64,000 bases of DNA, taken from Allonocardiopsis opalescens (lineage in GTDB: Bacteria; Actinomycetota; Actinomycetes; Streptosporangiales; Streptosporangiaceae). The translations under genes and the position numbers were made by a program. The notes below the pieces were generated by a model that did no database searches, was not told the origin of the DNA, and saw only the letters and a program-made list of their open reading frames with translations. This document shows positions 4,166-44,903 of the stretch, piece by piece; positions within the stretch are counted from its first letter, which is position 1; every line of letters begins with the position of its first letter. Location: NCBI RefSeq assembly GCF_003002095.1, contig NZ_PVZC01000002.1:124001-188000 (forward strand), written 5' to 3'.

Positions 4166-6778
4166 GTGAAGTCCCGGGTCGACAGCCTGTCCCCCCGTTC
4201 CCCCCTCTCAGCCCTGCTCTCCGCCGCCGCGGTCGCCGCCGTCACGGCCGCCGCGCTGACCGCGCCCGCCGGGCCGGCCCTGGCCGAGCCCGAGCCCGCG
4301 CCCGGCGGCGCACCCGTCCGCGACTTCGGCAACGGCGCCGAGCGCAACACCTACGAGGCGCCGGCCGAGCTGCCGGTCCAGCAGACCGGATCCGCCGCCG
4401 AGGCGGCCACCCGGCGCGCCGAGGCCGAGGCCGGCTACCCCAGGCAGACCGAGCTGCCGGTGTACCCGGACAACCCCGACGACCGCGCGATCCGGCTCGG
4501 GCTCACCCCGTACCACGAGATCGCTCCGCGCCTGAACGAGCTGCAGCAGCGCTCCGACCGGATCAGCGTGGAGGTCGTCGGCGAGTCGCACCAGGGCCGC
4601 GACCTCTACCTGGTCACCCTCACCGCGCCCGAGACGCCCGAGCAGACCGCCGAGCAGGAGCGGATGCGCGCCTCGATCGAGGAGCGGCCCGCGGCGGCCG
4701 CCCGCGACCGCCGCATCCCCAACCGCTACAAGATGCCGGTGTTCGTCAACAACAACATCCACGGCAACGAGTGGGAGGGCACCGACGCGGCGCTGCGCAC
4801 CATCGAGGAGCTGGCCACCAGCGACGACCCCGAGGTGGCCGAGCTGCTGAGCCGCACCCGCGTCTACTTCAACATCACCAACAACCCCGACGGCCGCTCG
4901 GGCGGCACCCGGGCCAACGGGGTCGGCTTCGACCTCAACCGCGACTTCATCACCGCCTCGCAGCCCGAGACCCGGGCCGTGCGCGAGCTGCTGATCGACA
5001 CGCAGCCGACGATGCTGATCGACCAGCACGGCTACGTGAACGGCACCCTCATCGAGCCGGCCACCATCCCGCACGGCCAGAACTACGAGTACGACCTCTA
5101 CATCAAGCACACCTACGCCAACGCCCTCGGCATGGAGCAGGCGATCCTCGACCTCGGCTACACCCCCGAGGGCGACGGCGTCAGCGCGCCGCAGATCCCC
5201 TTCCGCGACTGGGAGGAGGGCTGGGACGACTGGCCGCCGATCTTCACCCCGATGTACGCGCCGTACCAGGGCGCGGTGGCCGCCGCCACCATCGAGTTCC
5301 CGATGCGGGTGAACAACGCCGACTACACCGGGCTGCCGGTGGAGGAGCTGCGCCGCCGCTCCGCCATCAACACCGACATCTCCGCCGCCACGATGGACGC
5401 CACCCTGGACTACGCGCTGGACAACCGCGGCGAGCTGATCGCCGACCAGATCGAGGTCTTCCGGCGCGGCGAGGCCGGCGAGCCGCAGGTGGTGCCCGAG
5501 GACGGCTGGGTGCCCGGCTACGGCCGCGACGACGTGTACACCACCGAGTTCCCGCGCGCCTACGTGATCCCGGCCGGCGAGGGCCAGCGCTCGGCCACGG
5601 CCGCGGCCCGGCTGGTGGACCACCTGATCGCCAACGACGTGGCGGTGCTGCGCGCCACCGGCGACTTCCGGCTCGGCGGCACCCGCTACCCGGCGGGCAG
5701 CTACCTGGTCGACATGCACCAGGCCAAGCGCGGGCTGGCCAATGTGATGCTGGAGGCGGGCCGCGACATCAGCGCCGACGTGGACGCGATGTACGACATC
5801 TCCGGCTGGAGCCACGGCCTGCTGTGGGGCGCCACCGTCGACGCCGTCGACTCCGGCGACCCCGGGCGGGTGCGCGCCGAACCGGTGGCGGCGGCCGCCC
5901 CGACCGGCTCGGTGGCGCAGGCCGGCGACCTGGAGCTGCGGCTGGACGACGGCGGCGAGGTCGCCGCCCTCAACGAGCTGCTTGGACAGGGCGTCGCGGT
6001 GTCGTGGACCGGCGAGGGCTCCGTGGTGGTCCCGGCCGCGGCGCGGGCGGCGGCCGAGGAGGCGGCCGACCGGTACGGCGTCCGCTTCGCGGCGGCCGAG
6101 AACGCGGGCGCGCGGCCGCTCCAGGCGGTCACCGTCGCGGCGGCCGCGTCGGCCGACGAGCTGTTCACCCTGCGGGAGATGGGCTTCGAGGTGGTGCCCG
6201 CCTCCACCACCATCCTCAACGGCGGCTTCGACTGGTCGGGCATCGACACCCTGTACGTGTCCAGCGGCCTGGACTACAACCGGCTGAACGCCCAGGCGCG
6301 CGCCGCGCTCGACGCCTACCTGGAGCGCGGCGGCACGGTCACCCGCGGCTCCACCGGCGCGGCCTTCAACGCCGCCGCCGGGCTGCTGGAGGTCACCGCC
6401 CAGGCCGGGCGCGCCGACGCCAACGGCGTGGTGCGGGTCTCCGAGGGCGACGGGCAGGTGCTGAGCGGCTTCGGCGACCACGCCTTCGTCTACTCGCCGC
6501 TGTGGTTCACCGGGCTCGGCGAGGGCGTGGCCGTGGAGCAGTCCTACGCCACCGGCGAGCCGATGGCGGCCGGGCACTGGCGCGCCGACGACGAGGGTGA
6601 GGGCGGGCCCGACTCCGCCGCCGGCCAGGCGTCGGTGGTCAGCGGCACCACCCAGCGCGGCGGCGCGGCGGTGCTCTTCGGCACCGAGCCGCTGTTCCGC
6701 AACCACCCCAAGGGCCTCTTCGCCCAGGTCGCCCGCTCGCTGTACTGGACCGCGGCGCCGGGTGCCCCGGCGGCCTAG
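4166..6778 (+). CDS. Secreted M14-family zinc carboxypeptidase
   Basis: An 870-residue exported metallopeptidase. The N-terminus is a signal peptide: a basic start, a hydrophobic run at about 15-32, and an Ala-x-Ala site near residue 40. The M14 domain spans about 110-410, with zinc ligands His199 and Glu202 in HGNEWEG, third ligand His288 in DQHG, substrate-binding NPDG and NRDF motifs, and the catalytic Glu377 in ATIEFPM. The C-terminal 450 residues contain a Rossmann-like segment (YVSSGLDYNRLNAQARAALD) resembling the class-I-amidotransferase-like tail seen in large bacterial M14 enzymes. GTG 4166 follows AGGAGG. It probably trims peptides outside the cell; the substrate is unknown. Confidence 0.9.
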   Translation: MKSRVDSLSPRSPLSALLSAAAVAAVTAAALTAPAGPALAEPEPAPGGAPVRDFGNGAERNTYEAPAELPVQQTGSAAEAATRRAEAEAGYPRQTELPVYPDNPDDRAIRLGLTPYHEIAPRLNELQQRSDRISVEVVGESHQGRDLYLVTLTAPETPEQTAEQERMRASIEERPAAAARDRRIPNRYKMPVFVNNNIHGNEWEGTDAALRTIEELATSDDPEVAELLSRTRVYFNITNNPDGRSGGTRANGVGFDLNRDFITASQPETRAVRELLIDTQPTMLIDQHGYVNGTLIEPATIPHGQNYEYDLYIKHTYANALGMEQAILDLGYTPEGDGVSAPQIPFRDWEEGWDDWPPIFTPMYAPYQGAVAAATIEFPMRVNNADYTGLPVEELRRRSAINTDISAATMDATLDYALDNRGELIADQIEVFRRGEAGEPQVVPEDGWVPGYGRDDVYTTEFPRAYVIPAGEGQRSATAAARLVDHLIANDVAVLRATGDFRLGGTRYPAGSYLVDMHQAKRGLANVMLEAGRDISADVDAMYDISGWSHGLLWGATVDAVDSGDPGRVRAEPVAAAAPTGSVAQAGDLELRLDDGGEVAALNELLGQGVAVSWTGEGSVVVPAAARAAAEEAADRYGVRFAAAENAGARPLQAVTVAAAASADELFTLREMGFEVVPASTTILNGGFDWSGIDTLYVSSGLDYNRLNAQARAALDAYLERGGTVTRGSTGAAFNAAAGLLEVTAQAGRADANGVVRVSEGDGQVLSGFGDHAFVYSPLWFTGLGEGVAVEQSYATGEPMAAGHWRADDEGEGGPDSAAGQASVVSGTTQRGGAAVLFGTEPLFRNHPKGLFAQVARSLYWTAAPGAPAA

Positions 6779-27001: not shown

Positions 27002-28171
27002 ATGAGCGGTCATCGGCCGGTCCCCGTCGTGCTCGTCGGCGGGCTGCACCGCCGGGCACGCGCGGCCGCGGTACACGAACTCCTGGGCCCCGGCGCGGTC
27101 GCGGTCCGCCACGACCTGTCGCGCGTCGACGACGGCATCGTGCACCGGACCGTGCGCGACCGCTTCGGGGTGCGCGAGCACCTCGCGCTCGAGCCGGCGC
27201 ACGGCTGCGCGTCCTGCACGCTGCGCGAGGACCTGATCGGGGTGCTGCTCCGCCTCGCCGAGCAGCCGGAGAACACCCTGCTGGTGGTCGAGCTGTGGGA
27301 CTCCGTGGAACCGCGCGCCCTCGCCGAGTCGCTGTGCTGGGCCGTCCTCGACGGGCGCCCGCTCGCGCACGACCTCGCCGTGGCGGCCGTCATCACCGCC
27401 GTCGACGCCGACCGGCTCGTCGCGGACCTCTGCTGCGAGCAGGACGTCGCCGAACGGGGCATCGGCTCCGCCACGGACTCCCGGCCCGTCGCCGAGGTGC
27501 TGGCGCACCAGATCGAGTACCCGACGGCGCTGGCCGTGCACGGCGCCGACCGCGACGCGGCCGTCCGCCGCCAGGCCGCCGCCCTGCTGGGCCAGCTGAA
27601 CCCGGCGGCGATGCTGCTGCCCACCGGCCGGGGGCGGCTGCTCCCGCTGGCCCGGGGCCGCTTCGACGCCGACGCGGCGGCGGCCCGCGCCGATCCGGCC
27701 GGCCGGCAGTTCCCCGACAGCTGCGCGGCCGACGGCGTCACCACCGTGACCTGGCGCCGCCGGCGGCCGCTGCACCCCGGGCGCCTCTACGCCGCGCTCG
27801 ACGAGGTCGTCGGCGGCTCCCTGCGCAGCCGGGGCCGCTTCTGGCTGGCGAGCCGGCCCGCGACCATGCTGGTGTGGGACGCGGCCGGCAACCGGCTCGC
27901 GGTGGACGAGGCCGGGCCCTGGCTGGCGGCGCTGCCCGGCGCCGCCCGCGGACTGGCGGCCGAGCCCAGGCGCCTGGCCGCCGCCCTGGACTGGGCGCCC
28001 CGTACCGGCGACCGCCTCCAGCAGCTCTCCTTCACCGGCACCGGGCTCGACGCCCGGGCACTGACCGACCTGCTCGACTCCTGCCTGCTCACCGACGACG
28101 AACTCCACGCGGGCGAGGACGCCTGGACCCACCTCACCGACCCGTTCCGAACGGCCCTCCGGGAGGCGTGA
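27002..28171 (+). CDS. CobW/ZNG-family protein with degenerate P-loop
   Basis: A 389-residue CobW-like protein, a family that includes zinc chaperone GTPases induced by zinc starvation. The metal motif [10 protein letters not shown] (CxCC-like) is near residue 69, followed by a Walker B-like [10 protein letters not shown]. The expected GxxGxGKT Walker A is replaced by [13 protein letters not shown], so GTP binding is doubtful. The C-terminal half has the CobW_C fold with [16 protein letters not shown] and [13 protein letters not shown] lies just before ATG 27002. The Zur-box-like site at 26957 and the zinc neighbours place it in the zinc-starvation response. Confidence 0.85.
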
Positions 28172-28211
28172 GCGGTGTTGCCCCGGACCCCTGCGCCGCC
28201 CCGACCGCCCC

Positions 28212-28443
28212 CAGCCCAGTCCCCCGCCCACCCTGGGGGGACTTCCCCTGCACACGATCCTCGCGCCCCACCGTGCGCAGCGCGATCCCTACCGGACGGT
28301 TGTGGACAACGGCTCCGGGGTGGCGGCGGGCTGTGGACAACCGCCCTCAGCCCAGTCCCCCGCCCTCCCAGGGGGACTCCCCTGCGTCAATTCTTCCGCC
28401 CCGCCATGCGCCGCGCACCCACGAGCGGACCGTTGTGGACAAG
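28212..28443. repeat. Tandem hairpin repeat with DnaA-box-like sequences
   Basis: Two imperfect copies of a roughly 96-bp unit (28212-28310 and 28348-28443, offset 136 bp). Each opens with a hairpin whose arms are AGTCCCCC and GGGGGACT around a C-rich loop, continues with TCCCCTGC, and ends with TTGTGGACAA, whose complement contains TTGTCCACA, a high-GC DnaA box. An extra TGTGGACAA is at 28332. A third copy lies inverted at 42010-42096. The rest of 28172-28492 is non-coding. Confidence 0.65.
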
Positions 28444-28492
28444 GCACCCGATCGGAGCGCGCCTGTGGACGCCGACTTGACACCGGTCCAGT

Positions 28493-28521
28493 TTGACAAC
28501 GATTTTCATTTTCTGGACACT
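28493..28521 (+). promoter_or_regulatory. znuA promoter with overlapping Zur box
   Basis: -35 TTGACA (28493-28498) and -10 GACACT (28516-28521) are 17 bp apart. The Zur-box-like TGACAACGATTTTCA (28494-28508) covers the -35, so bound Zur would block polymerase. The start codon is 8 bp after the -10, so the transcript should be leaderless. Confidence 0.78.
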
Positions 28522-28528
28522 GAACAAC

Positions 28529-29620
28529 ATGAGCATACGAATGGCGCGTAACGCCTTCGCGCTGGTCGGCGCGGGCGCACTGCTGCTGGCGGGTGCCGCC
28601 TGCGGCACCGGGGCGGACGGATCGGCCGACGACGGGCGGCCCACCGTCGTCACCGCGGTGTACCCCCTGCAGTGGCTGGCCGAGCGGGTCGCCGGAGACC
28701 GCGCCGAGGTCGCGAACCTGGTGGAGCCGGGTGTCGAGGCGCACGACGTCGAGCTCACCCCGCGCCAAGTCGGCGAGCTGGGGCAGGCCGCGGTCGTGTT
28801 CTACATCGCGGGCATGTCCCCCGCCGTCGACGACGCCGTCGCCCAGGAGGCGCCCGACACCGCCCTCGACGCGCAGACGCTCACCGACCCCCTCGCCCCC
28901 GCCGAGGAGGAGGGCGGCGAGCACGCCGACGAGCACGCGGAAGAAGAGGGCCACACCCACGAGGGCGAGGAGCCCGCCCACGAAGAGGGCCACACCGACG
29001 AGGCCGAGCACGCCCACGAGGGCGAGGCGGAGCACGCCCACGAGGGCGAGGCGGAGCACGCCCACGAGGGCGAGGGCGAGGCCGGGCACGACCACGCGCA
29101 CGAGGGCGCCGACCCGCACCTGTGGCTCGACCCCACCCGGATGGGCCCGCTCGCCGAGGGCCTGGCCGAGCGCCTCAGCGAGGCCGACCCCGAGGGCGCC
29201 GAGACCTACGCGGCCAACGCCCAGGCGGTCGCCGACGAAACCACCGCCCTGGACGAGGAGTTCACCACCGCCCTGGAGGGCTGCGCGGCCGACACGATCG
29301 TCACCAGCCACACCGCCTTCGGCTACCTCGCGGACCGCTACGGCCTGCACCAGGTGGGCATCGCCGGGCTGAGCCCCGACACCGAGCCCTCCCCGGCCCG
29401 GATGGCGGAGGTCGCCGAGATCGCCGAGCACGAGGGCGTCTCCACCGTCTTCACCGAGACCACGGTGAGCCCCGAGGTCGCCCAGACCCTCGCCGACGAG
29501 ATCGGCGTCAGCACGGCCGTGCTGAACACCCTCGAAGGCGGCCCCACCGAGGGGGGCGACTACCTGTCGACCATGCGCGAGAACCTCGCCGCCCTCACCG
29601 GCGCCCTGGACTGCGGCTGA
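28529..29620 (+). CDS. znuA: Zinc ABC transporter substrate-binding protein
   Basis: A 363-residue lipoprotein-type cluster A-I binding protein. The signal peptide ends with AGAAC, Cys25 being the probable lipid anchor (a weak lipobox). VVTAVYPLQWLAERVAGDRAEV opens the domain and His in GVEAHDVEL is the first ligand. A very long metal-catching loop at about 128-192 is rich in His and Glu with repeated HAHEGEAE units. DPHLWLDP and TSHTAFGYLADRYGL supply further ligands. No ATPase or permease (znuC, znuB) follows: the next gene is convergent zur. It must therefore work with a transporter encoded elsewhere. Confidence 0.93.
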   Translation: MSIRMARNAFALVGAGALLLAGAACGTGADGSADDGRPTVVTAVYPLQWLAERVAGDRAEVANLVEPGVEAHDVELTPRQVGELGQAAVVFYIAGMSPAVDDAVAQEAPDTALDAQTLTDPLAPAEEEGGEHADEHAEEEGHTHEGEEPAHEEGHTDEAEHAHEGEAEHAHEGEAEHAHEGEGEAGHDHAHEGADPHLWLDPTRMGPLAEGLAERLSEADPEGAETYAANAQAVADETTALDEEFTTALEGCAADTIVTSHTAFGYLADRYGLHQVGIAGLSPDTEPSPARMAEVAEIAEHEGVSTVFTETTVSPEVAQTLADEIGVSTAVLNTLEGGPTEGGDYLSTMRENLAALTGALDCG

Positions 29621-36197: not shown

Positions 36198-36856
36198 TCG
36201 CAGGCCGCGCCCGCCGAGGCGAGACGAGCGTCATCATCCGCGGCAGAACCCGCGAACCCGCCCGCGCCGGGTGGCGGAGATCTCCGACGGCCACTCGTCC
36301 AGGCCGCCCGCGCCGACGCCTCTCGACCGTCATTCTCAGCGGTCGGCCCCTCCCGCCAGCACCGCAGGCACCAGAAGCCTCCGGACCTTCAAGGTCCGGG
36401 GAAAAGGCGCCTGGGCGGGACGCACGCGCACCGAACGGCGGGCAGGTGGTGCGCTGACTCCGCAGCCCGAGGATCACCCCGAAAGGCCGTGCCACTCCTG
36501 CAAGACCACGCAAGCTCCCAGCCCGAACTGTGGACAACCCAAGCGGCCGGCGACCTTATCCACAAGCCGCACACCTCCACATGGACCGCTCTCCCCCCTT
36601 CGGGAGATGCTCTCCCCGTGGCGGTCACGTTGCCGCCACCACTGGTCAGTCGAGGGGAGGGAGTGCCGATGCGCGCTGGCGCTCCCGTCAAGCACCCCGC
36701 TGGCCAGACGCCACGGAAGCCGTCGACGCGGGTCGGCGGGGCTTCACGGGAAGCACGGGCCGGAGCGGTTAGCACCGTTCCAGCCCGTTCCGACAACGAG
36801 AACGACGGCCGGCGGCGTGACCGCGGCAACGTGACCGACCACACCAACCGAGAGAC
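36198..36856. other. Non-coding accessory stretch with palindrome and paired DnaA-like boxes
   Basis: No gene that I can support. CCGGACCTT-C-AAGGTCCGG at 36381-36399 is a perfect 9-1-9 palindrome, an operator or short terminator. TTATCCACA occurs at 36556-36564 and its relative TTGTCCACA on the opposite strand at 36529-36537, so two DnaA-type boxes face each other 18 bp apart. Confidence 0.45.
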
Positions 36857-41728: not shown

Positions 41729-42009
41729 GCCCCCATTCAACCCGCAGCTTCCGGGTCCGTGCTCGCGGAAATCGGACCTGGCGGTGGCGGCCGCTCCGGG
41801 CGCCGATTCCCGCTGCCGCCCTGGTGCCGGGCCGGGCGCGACGGTGCGCGGGCGGCGTCCGCGTGCCCGGTGGACGGCGGCCGCCGACCGGGCCGGTCCG
41901 TCGAGGTCCGCCCAGGTCAACACGGCGGGCGGGGGCCGCGATTCCGTGCCCGGGCGCGGGATGGTGGCGGCGCAAGCCGACCGTCCACAGGCGGCGGCCT
42001 TGGCCCTTC
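41729..42009. other. Upstream region of the ada-alkA operon
   Basis: No gene that I can support. It contains the promoter region of the operon and, at its distal end, the start of the inverted hairpin repeat. Confidence 0.4.
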
Positions 42010-42096
42010 GTTGTCCACAACCCGTGGGTAACCCGCACGCGGCGCACCCTGGAGCGCAAGGATGGTTGTAGGGGAGCCCCCCAGGGAGGGCGGGGT
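42010..42096 (-). repeat. Third copy of the hairpin/DnaA-box repeat, inverted
   Basis: Read on the minus strand it opens with the hairpin AACCCCGCCCTCCCTGGGGG (42075-42096 region), passes CTCCCCTAC and a GTGCGCCGCG-like middle, and ends with GGGTTGTGGACAAC (42008-42021). The order and length match the two copies at 28212-28443, 14 kb away. Confidence 0.6.
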
Positions 42097-42111
42097 TCGC
42101 AGATGGGTGCA

Positions 42112-42306
42112 GTTCTTCTTAGCGTTGCGCCTGGTCAGGACGTTGCTCGCTGACCATGTCTCGTCTAGGCGGTCGCTGGTGAGGGTCGCTGTGATCTTGG
42201 CGCGTCGGGTCCGGCGGTCGAAGTCCACCCGCAGGTTCAGCGAGTCCAGTAGTCGGCCCAGGGCGTCGTGCGGCAGGGCGTCTAGAGCAGCGTCATCTGG
42301 CCCAGA
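42112..42306 (-). pseudogene. Possible C-terminal relic of a serine recombinase
   Basis: The open frame reads LPHDALGRLLDSLNLRVDF, then DRRTRRAKITATLTSDRLD, which resembles the C-terminal tail of large serine recombinases (LG-L-V-YDxxTR followed by beta strands). It begins after a stop at 42307 and runs into the hairpin repeat, so both ends are cut. GC content is lower than average. The assignment rests on pattern only. Confidence 0.3.
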
Positions 42307-42389: not shown

Positions 42390-42629
42390 ATGAGCGGCGT
42401 CCGTCTGCTGTTGTCGCTGGACCGGGCGTTCAGGCATGACGCCCTGGTCGCCGCCGCCTACTTCCTCGCGCAGATCGAAGCCGAGCAGGACGACCAGGAC
42501 GACGACGAGCAGCGCCACGACGACTCCACCGAGCCCGAACCGCAGCCCGCCCGGCTCCGCCCCGTCCCCGACCCCGCCGCGATGACCAAGACCGTGTTCG
42601 CCCAGGCCGACCAGGAGGCCCAGTCATGA
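42390..42629 (+). CDS. Small protein of unknown function, probably 5'-truncated
   Basis: A 79-residue protein from ATG 42390; the coding frame clearly continues upstream to about 42285 (LAQITARARAAGQASARRAAFLVTSADPGEI), where sense is lost at the boundary with the recombinase relic. It has RLLLSLDRAFRHDALVAAAYFLAQIEAEQ, then a very acidic Asp/Glu/Gln stretch and PAAMTKTVFAQADQEAQS. The stop overlaps the next start (ATGA). No domain is recognised. Confidence 0.45.
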   Translation: MSGVRLLLSLDRAFRHDALVAAAYFLAQIEAEQDDQDDDEQRHDDSTEPEPQPARLRPVPDPAAMTKTVFAQADQEAQS

Positions 42630-43024
42630 CCGACGACAGCACCCTAGATCTCACGTGGGCGTTCACCGCCGCACTGACCGACGCCGCCACGGACGCCGTG
42701 CGGCTGCCCGACGCAGCGCGAGAGCTGGACGACCGGTTGGAGCGCGCCAGTGAAGCCGGGGCGCCGCTGTGGCCGAACGAGCGCTACGGCACCGCCCATT
42801 TGCGCGGCTTGCTGGACACCGCCCTTGACTACGCGCTGACCGGCGCGCCCCCCGGCGAGCAGCTGGCGGGCATCGCCGCGATCGCCCACGTCGCCGACGA
42901 TCACCAGTTGGGCGAGCGGTTCGTGTTCGAGGCGGCCGCCCACTGGGCGACCAAGGTCGCCGAGTACGCCCCCGTCATCACGGTGATCCGCCCCGGCACC
43001 CCGGAATGGGCGCACATCCCATAG
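42626..43024 (+). CDS. Protein of unknown function, translationally coupled
   Basis: A 132-residue acidic, mainly helical protein (MTDDSTLDLTWAFTAALTDAA, ERYGTAHLRGLLDTALDYAL, AHWATKVAEYAPVITVIRPGT). The ATG overlaps the previous stop. No family is recognised. It lies in the accessory segment between the recombinase-like relic and the pentapeptide gene and is probably mobile-element cargo. Nothing else is seen in 43025-43183. Confidence 0.6.
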   Translation: MTDDSTLDLTWAFTAALTDAATDAVRLPDAARELDDRLERASEAGAPLWPNERYGTAHLRGLLDTALDYALTGAPPGEQLAGIAAIAHVADDHQLGERFVFEAAAHWATKVAEYAPVITVIRPGTPEWAHIP

Positions 43025-44365: not shown

Positions 44366-44903
44366 CACAACACCACGAGCCACCTCGGCACCGGGCCTGA
44401 CCACCAACGGCCACGAACCCCACCCCAACAACCCCCCGTCCAACATTCCGCCGACCGGCGTGGACCAGCCAGGGCCAACCCACGCCGGACAGCACGCACC
44501 TACACGTCCGTAGTCCAAGACACGGTGAGCGCCGCAGGCGAAGCGTGATCCCATCTGCTGCCCCCAGGGAGGGCGGGGGAAGGAGTGGTTGGCGCTGTTT
44601 TCGGTGGAGCGCTCGACGGGCTTGGCGGAGGCGGTCTGTGTTGATTGTCCGTTGGGATGGAACATTGGCCGAGCATGACGGCGGCACTCCAGCCGCTGAC
44701 GGGCTGACCTGTGGGTTCAGGATCGCCTACGTTTCCGGCTGGCAGGGCGAGTGATCGGCGGGCGTCCGGGCGCGGGCGGTGGTGAAGGTCGTCGGTCGGG
44801 TGGCTGGTACGCAACCGGTGCCGGAGGGCTGAGCGGGGCCGCCGGTGCCTGGTGCGACGGGCGCGCATACGCCGTTGCGGGCGGCATCGGGATCGCATAG
44901 TGG
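44366..44903. other. Accessory non-coding stretch with a fourth hairpin-repeat fragment
   Basis: The sequence CCCCCAGGGAGGGCGGGGGA (44561-44580) repeats the hairpin of the 28.2-kb and 42.0-kb elements, but the DnaA-box end is absent, so it is a truncated copy. No gene that I can support; short open frames here look random. Confidence 0.45.

Follow-up and report, generated by a model that had tools for sequence, protein, structure and literature searches.

A dispersed cassette combining DnaA boxes with a promoter-like block in Allonocardiopsis opalescens and other actinomycetes

Cassette units at the locus

The window analysed here is a 64-kb stretch of the Allonocardiopsis opalescens genome, in which two tandem repeat units are flanked by a CobW-like gene and a ZnuA-type zinc-uptake gene (27029–29620). 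Copies were scored with R1, a sequence-only model built from 29 A. opalescens copies (alignment A1) whose E-values are rough. Unit 1 (28217–28340, plus strand; blastn and R1 match C2:152217–152343, 75.9 bits) opens with a plus-strand hairpin at 28218–28243, which has a C-rich 5′ arm and a G run (arms 28218–28225/28236–28243; DNA fold, 8 bp, −8.0 kcal/mol, z −1.65 against shuffles). The plus-strand CCCC that follows (28245–28248) reads GGGG on the minus strand, where it is the predicted transcription start. A −10-like hexamer, GAGGAT, lies on the minus strand at 28257–28262, 44 nt from the first of two plus-strand DnaA-box matches, box 1 TTGTGGACAA (28300–28309) and, 31 nt after it, box 2 CTGTGGACAA (28331–28340).

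Unit 2 (28353–28470, plus strand; R1 match C2:152353–152474, 75.1 bits) repeats this order, with a plus-strand hairpin at 28354–28378 (arms 28354–28361/28371–28378; DNA fold, 8 bp, −8.1 kcal/mol, z −2.32), the minus-strand hexamer AAGAAT (28390–28395), again 44 nt from box 1, a plus-strand box 1 TTGTGGACAA (28433–28442), and a plus-strand box 2 CTGTGGAC (28463–28470) followed by TTGACA. The hairpins of both units outperform shuffled sequences modestly. Unit 3 is inverted (41983–42096, minus strand), with box 1 at 42011–42020 on the minus strand, box 2 at 41983–41990 and the hexamer AAGGAT on the plus strand (42058–42063), 44 nt from box 1. It is adjoined by weak ORFs without a Pfam match (42390–43024).

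A sequence-only reading of this DNA had described a dispersed repeat whose units start with a hairpin and end with TTGTGGACAA, and this holds for both tandem units. The two tandem units, the inverted unit and a 23-nt fragment all belong to one genome-wide family. The inverted unit is a real copy (R1 match C2:165978–166096, 85 bits, E 2.2e-23) but lacks the AGTCCCCC/GGGGGACT hairpin attributed to it (DNA fold, z −0.53). The fragment, reported as hairpin-only, is indeed the 5′ hairpin part alone (44561–44583, minus strand): 23 of its 23 letters are identical to part of other copies, and it is not among the R1 matches.

Exact TTGTGGACAA occurs three times in the 64-kb window, each time inside units 1–3. 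With up to one mismatch it occurs seven times against 0.48 expected, a count reached in 0 of 100 shuffles. In each window unit a second box lies 30–31 nt beyond box 1 (28331, 28463 and 41983–41990), and an A-NNN-T block precedes box 1 by exactly 44 nt in all three. A further pair of boxes, CTGTGGACAA and, separated from it by 18 nt, an inverted TTGTGGATAA, lies at 36528–36565; no cassette was found there.

Copy number and architecture

When one unit was used as a blastn query, the A. opalescens genome yielded 41 hits at E ≤ 10. R1 found at least 130 matches at E ≤ 1, at least 94 of them at E < 1e-7, with scoring applied to the best 150 of 16,639 first-look candidates. The at least 116 matches at E < 0.01 bear out the expectation that a genome search would uncover more copies. 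Further analysis used the best 103 of the 130 copies and left out the 27 weaker ones.

The order of elements is a C-rich hairpin, CCCC, about 4 nt, a CC-A-NNN-T block, a DnaA box and a second box. Written from left to right, the letters are CCCCC[G/T]CCCNCCCNGGGGG(G), a few nucleotides, CCCC, about 4 nt and CC-A-K-Y-S-T; about 39 variable nucleotides then lead to [C/T]TGTGGAYAA (box 1) and the second box. Among the columns without variation in the 29 copies of A1 are the C tracts, the G run, both block letters A and T, and TGTGGA. In weaker A. opalescens copies a different G/C hairpin stands in place of the C-rich one, with CCCC and the block retained. None of the eight predicted hairpin pairs covaries.

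Spacing was examined in 189 copies, after removal of 15 duplicates and with the block placed by A-NNN-T alone. The block lies within 2 nt of 45 nt before box 1 (43–47) in 175 of the 189, with 170 of these at 44–46 nt; at eight other offsets the pattern occurs in 9, 12, 12, 4, 25, 8, 7 and 2 of the copies. Part of this tightness is selected, because the search patterns behind most foreign copies prescribe the hairpin, the box and the permitted range of spacings. In 77 of the 97 foreign copies listed, the distance from hairpin start to box end is 85–88 nt, under a pattern that permitted a range of about 25 nt; several longer copies reach the second box. The two boxes are 30–32 nt apart, start to start, in 82 of the 103 A. 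opalescens copies and 19–20 nt apart in 36 of the 37 Goodfellowiella copies that could be scored (four of the 41 were left out), distances near three and two helical turns.

A promoter-like block on the opposite strand

Read on the opposite strand, the block becomes N-A-[G/C]-[A/G]-[A/C]-T followed by GG, and CCCC becomes GGGG at +1. Examples are TAGGCT in Goodfellowiella, TAGACT in Labedaea, GACACT in Actinomadura and GAGAAT in A. opalescens. The −10 element of sigma-A promoters depends most on A at −11 and T at −7, and both letters are present in all 29 A1 copies. Among the 175 aligned copies, positions not used for placing the block are A or C at −8 in 99% and A or G at −9 in 97%. The same set has G at −6 in 82% and at −5 in 94%, at −14 in 79%, and at +2 to +4 in 89–98%. 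T at −12 occurs in only 23% of copies, which counts against a promoter-like reading. Within the window units, no −35 TTGACA was found at 16–18 nt and a sigma-70-type scan returned nothing. The pattern of conserved positions nonetheless suggests that the block may have promoter activity.

Of 76 A. opalescens copies, 25 have TTGAC in the 60 nt that follow box 2, as compared to 28 of 1520 control windows, and in 17 of the 76 it lies exactly +14 from the box 2 start, as in the window at 28463–28482. A few copies from other genera also carry TTGAC 13–14 nt after box 2. It was considered as the −35 element of a rightward promoter and rejected, no −10 element being seen at normal spacing.

DnaA boxes

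Box 1 scores 8–9 of 9 against TGTGGAYRA in all 103 copies, and a box 2 scoring 7 or more of 9 is present in 87 of them. The cassette box matches the actinobacterial consensus TTGTCCACA, listed in Table 1 of PMC4285127 as the high-affinity DnaA box of S. coelicolor and M. tuberculosis. The 8-kb dnaA region of A. opalescens contains seven forward and four reverse boxes of the same kind, and the earlier description of the repeat ends as DnaA-box-like is supported at the sequence level. In ChIP-seq, E. coli DnaA favours two boxes 2–3 bp apart (PMC11317965); such pairing is not found in most copies, where the spacing is 19–20 or 30–32 nt. Judging from the box sequence, DnaA is predicted to bind at the cassettes.

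We considered oriC as a source of the cassette and discarded it, the strict pattern finding none in the 8 kb around A. opalescens dnaA. A weak partial R1 match lies just upstream of that gene (C3:175044, E 0.07), and in Streptomyces sp. SPB074 a cassette-like copy (L292, about 4254–4330) lies ~700 nt downstream of dnaA. Orientation relative to oriC, a comparison proposed with the first description, shows a weak excess, with 15 of 21 copies on contig C3 pointing away from oriC by hand count. Phages were also considered and rejected: five viral contigs match a loose pattern, and the stretches inspected have DnaA boxes with no cassette hairpin seen.

Placement and orientation

Genes were called with a purpose-written codon-usage gene caller. 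An intergenic location had been proposed for the repeat, and 101 of the 103 A. opalescens copies overlap a called gene by at most 30 nt; two overlap by more. The strands of the left and right genes are ++ for 60 copies, +− for 20, −+ for 16 and −− for 7. Copies in co-directional gaps are thus split 60 to 7 in favour of one orientation (p 1e-11), and 80 of the 103 have the hairpin side next to the 3′ end of a gene. Convergent and divergent gaps number 17:15 with a cassette as compared to 5:21 among cassette-free gaps of at least 200 nt (Fisher p 0.014).

In Goodfellowiella, 41 of the 49 copies gave strands of +− 16, ++ 12, −− 10 and −+ 3. There the 16 convergent gaps outnumber 3 divergent ones and the orientation bias is absent (12 of 22 co-directional copies), such that 3′-end placement recurs in this genus and the orientation bias does not. 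The suggestion that the sites are transcription-coupled accordingly suits A. opalescens, where 60 of 67 co-directional copies face one way, but not Goodfellowiella. A pool of 117 copies from other clades gave ++ 38, +− 37, −− 18, −+ 5 and 19 with one side unknown; this pool contains duplicates and in-gene Actinomadura copies, and the Goodfellowiella counts are preferred. The bias in A. opalescens may stem from selection against G-rich sense RNA.

Copying as discrete units

In 781 pairs of A. opalescens copies the match covers most of the cassette, and in none does it exceed 400 nt. The closest pair, C1:985089/C1:1089781, has 95.6% identity across 229 nt between flanks that are unrelated; this stretch extends 23 nt to the left and 80 nt to the right of the model match. 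In these two copies (C1:985089–985213 and C1:1089781–1089905; L221, L150), cassette and leader are shared up to the start codons of different genes. Other close pairs are 85–87% alike over 151–191 nt, and the median nearest identity among A. opalescens copies is 0.78. In Goodfellowiella, the pair L307/L308 shares a long flank of 816 nt. Since matches end near the unit and the flanks are unrelated, the units were copied as such, once fairly recently. The copies spread as units, mostly long ago.

No pairs of inverted repeats of at least 12 nt were found in 28100–28600 or 41900–42200, and no target-site duplication was evident by eye in near-identical pairs. The Y1 transposase domain (PF01797) was found neither in A. 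opalescens nor in five of seven other cassette-bearing genomes; the remaining two have one match (G230) and one weak match (G231). Filled and empty linkers of the AtuA and dnaX genes were too variable to fix the cassette ends.

Distribution among actinomycetes

The cassette architecture recurs in at least Goodfellowiella, Labedaea, Streptoalloteichus, Actinoallomurus, Actinomadura and some Streptomyces, with at least 97 matching stretches in a pattern scan across genera, at least one of which (L110) looks like chance. A strict hairpin pattern was found in 15 of 200 family genomes and a looser pattern in 3 of 394 class genomes, A. opalescens being included in both counts. In a further set the looser pattern was present in 16 of 20 genomes, 19 of which had been chosen for an earlier pattern match; the highest counts were 62 copies in A. 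opalescens and 49 in Goodfellowiella. A hairpin-free pattern matched 5 of 393 genomes, again with A. opalescens; this pattern is insensitive, as only eight A. opalescens copies were found by it. With R1, 10 of 40 relatives each showed one or two weak matches. Reversed-pattern controls gave none in the genomes listed for the strict, looser and hairpin-free patterns. Few of the sampled genomes carry the cassette family, and these can have many copies.

Cassettes inside genes

In Actinomadura, cassettes lie in sense and in frame within the linkers of dnaX, of an AtuA-like protein and of an E2 acyltransferase. The dnaX loci were chosen by protein, with the gene present in 59 of 60 genomes, 50 of the 59 read and 48 scored. 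A linker cassette is present in 30 of the 48 genes, in frame in all, and its A-to-box spacing is 44 in 30 of 30 (scoring permitted 43–47). Among the 18 genes without a cassette, six are cut at contig ends and in one (L351) the break falls inside the cassette; the box letters survive in four (L361, L365, L376, L396), and seven have neither box nor block.

Codon choice within the dnaX cassettes is skewed towards codons that the same genes seldom use. Threonine is ACT in 26 of 27 (usage 0.6%), serine AGT in 28 of 29 (0.7%) and aspartate GAT in 28 of 29 (4.8%), all three being counts that ignore shared ancestry. The scoring pattern placed no constraint on the T in ACT or in GAT, and for AGT it accepted either T or C. 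TCT (usage 1.2%) is the sole serine codon of SVD[N/D] in 28 of 28 such tetrapeptides across all 48 linkers, its last T being demanded by the scoring pattern in 25 of the 28 and left free in three. The fixation of rare codons in the dnaX cassette therefore points to selection on the DNA letters.

At 30 AtuA loci, likewise chosen by protein, linker length is a multiple of three in all 30, and the strict pattern finds a cassette in 11. At the remaining loci the box is altered (L250, L257), the hairpin is a different one (L273), the copy has decayed (L251) or the linker is empty. Some copies decay (L251 and four in dnaX), and loss is therefore tolerated.

Proposed function and alternatives

Our preferred explanation, which we put forward tentatively, is that the cassette is a DnaA-docking, promoter-like unit. 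It draws on the copy number, modular architecture, spacing, 3′-end placement, recurrence, unit copying and dnaX letter conservation observed above, of which the dnaX result weighs most. An old, dispersed cassette family would have spread through the genome in discrete units, each presenting one or two DnaA boxes in fixed orientation, with the A-to-box distance mostly 44–46 nt. The opposite strand would offer an extended −10 element (NANNNT followed by GG), a start at GGGG and a G-rich foldable leader. DnaA docked on phased boxes could then meet RNA polymerase held at the −10-like block, a contact that we infer from the spacing. In this arrangement DnaA, the replication initiator, might serve as the local switch of a short transcript or of a parked polymerase, in either case directed away from the boxes; in A. 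opalescens this direction mostly leads into the 3′ end of the adjacent gene. Some consequence for transcription or replication would be expected.

The cassette looks like a working, undescribed signal and not junk, because its exact letters are preserved even inside the DNA polymerase gene dnaX in relatives. We found no description of it in the open-access literature (subscription papers lay mostly outside the scope of the search). A bolder claim, about which we are more doubtful, is that it represents a hitherto undescribed type of chromosomal signal, with phased DnaA-docking promoters in about a hundred copies that spread as units and whose letters are maintained even in the replication gene dnaX. 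If so, DnaA would act on transcription or on parked polymerases chromosome-wide and would tie replication state to gene borders. Genome-wide regulation by DnaA is hard to study with boxes that are short and scattered. The cassette packages the box with a fixed partner block in about a hundred copies, and dnaX provides a natural experiment in which the letters can be changed and the protein kept the same. The role of DnaA away from oriC would thereby become directly testable in filamentous actinomycetes.

A somewhat unlikely alternative is a small non-autonomous mobile element (MITE or REP-like) that uses the DnaA box as a host-factor site, its copies being selfish or leftover and present in linkers by chance. 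Mobility had been suggested from the outset, and it stands insofar as copies are discrete units (0 of 781 pairs above 400 nt, one pair 95.6% identical over 229 nt between unrelated flanks). Many copies in few genomes, in-frame copies in the Actinomadura dnaX, AtuA-like and E2 genes and the window fragment at 44561–44583 are also what such an element would leave. REPs and RPEs are likewise described downstream of genes and in linkers, replication genes included (PMC3733652, PMC2229807). The transposition side of the claim fared less well: A. opalescens has no Y1_Tnp, and neither terminal inverted repeats (≥12 nt, in 28100–28600 and 41900–42200) nor a target-site duplication was seen. Most copies are old by their median nearest identity of 0.78, and the 95.6% pair shares its leader as far as the next start codon, such that its ends may reflect recombination. 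Debris would also lose the letters that are kept at the rare dnaX codons. Mobility and function are nonetheless compatible and do not exclude each other.

Dispersed DnaA-titration sites are an unlikely explanation. Here ~200 extra boxes would couple initiation to genome duplication, with the block merely keeping the site accessible. The box count agrees with this idea (box 1 in 103 of 103 copies and box 2 in 87 of 103, versus seven forward and four reverse boxes within the 8 kb around dnaA), and in Streptomyces DnaA-box clusters outside oriC limit initiation. Titration, also raised in the sequence-only reading, is thus possible, but it leaves the fixed architecture unexplained: the hairpin, the −10-like block and the fixed spacing are not needed for it, and most relatives do without the cassette family.

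We regard a transcription terminator or attenuator of the upstream gene as very improbable. The hairpin side at gene 3′ ends (80 of 103 copies), the ratio of convergent to divergent gaps (17:15 with a cassette versus 5:21 without, p 0.014) and the 16 convergent versus 3 divergent gaps of Goodfellowiella would suit a terminator, yet a terminator scan of the window units gave no hit and 0 of 8 hairpin pairs covary. The sense orientation in mid-gene within dnaX, the AtuA-like gene and E2 also argues against it, termination there being harmful. A structured non-coding RNA or a peptide tag (PPPAQGGDPTSSV...SVDN) is scarcely credible: despite the foldable hairpin and an open frame across the cassette in Actinomadura, the window has no Rfam match at gathering scores, 13 copy loci gave seven Rfam matches at E ≤ 5 of which just three, all tRNAs, reached the family cut-off, no compensatory pairs were found, and a tag explains neither the rare-codon conservation nor the intergenic copies.

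The sequence-only interpretation is thus borne out in part. The promoter-like block, the second box, the fixed spacing, the occurrence in other families and the letter-level conservation in dnaX all lie beyond it.

Comparison with known systems

Among known repeats, REP elements are mostly downstream of genes, in convergent or unidirectional gaps and sometimes in replication-gene linkers (PMC3733652). Like those REPs (GTAG/CGTC families, RAYT-associated), the cassette is dispersed, hairpin-bearing and located downstream of genes. It differs in unit length (~95–130 bp as compared to 20–40), in having no GTAG/CGTC tag among the invariant or nearly invariant A1 columns (29 copies), in the lack of a Y1 transposase in A. 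opalescens and in carrying DnaA boxes that are spaced at a fixed distance. The small mobile sequences known as Rickettsia palindromic elements and ERIC/RU are also similar, with in-frame copies of RPE and ERIC inside conserved proteins in addition to intergenic copies (PMC2229807). In the cassette, however, letters and not the frame alone are conserved in dnaX, and no terminal inverted repeats were seen. As compared to a MITE, discrete dispersed units are found and terminal inverted repeats are not (28100–28600 and 41900–42200).

DnaA boxes outside oriC are shared with datA, DARS and non-oriC box clusters. While datA and DARS are few fixed loci, the cassette has about a hundred copies, carries a promoter-like block and lacks E. 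coli-type box pairs 2–3 bp apart. MIRU sequences are actinobacterial, intergenic, co-oriented with neighbouring genes and can be in frame, features in which the cassette resembles them. MIRU are not known to carry a DnaA box or −10-like block.

Variant copies

Several loci depart from the common arrangement. Head-to-head cassette pairs at C3:439304–439531 and C3:229582–229805 (L213, L228) share one atypical G/C hairpin, and three tandem divergent copies at C3:25328–25775 (L241) are 0.89–0.93 alike, with the second box inverted. Goodfellowiella copies (L307–L346) carry a CGA[A/T]CGGGTGA-like motif after box 2, with [A/G]GGTGA at +22 to +24 in 18 of 37. In five Streptomyces loci (L034, L042, L067, L078, L104), a CTCACTC...GAGTGAG-like hairpin often follows box 1, and in some of them an inverted DnaA box comes after that hairpin.
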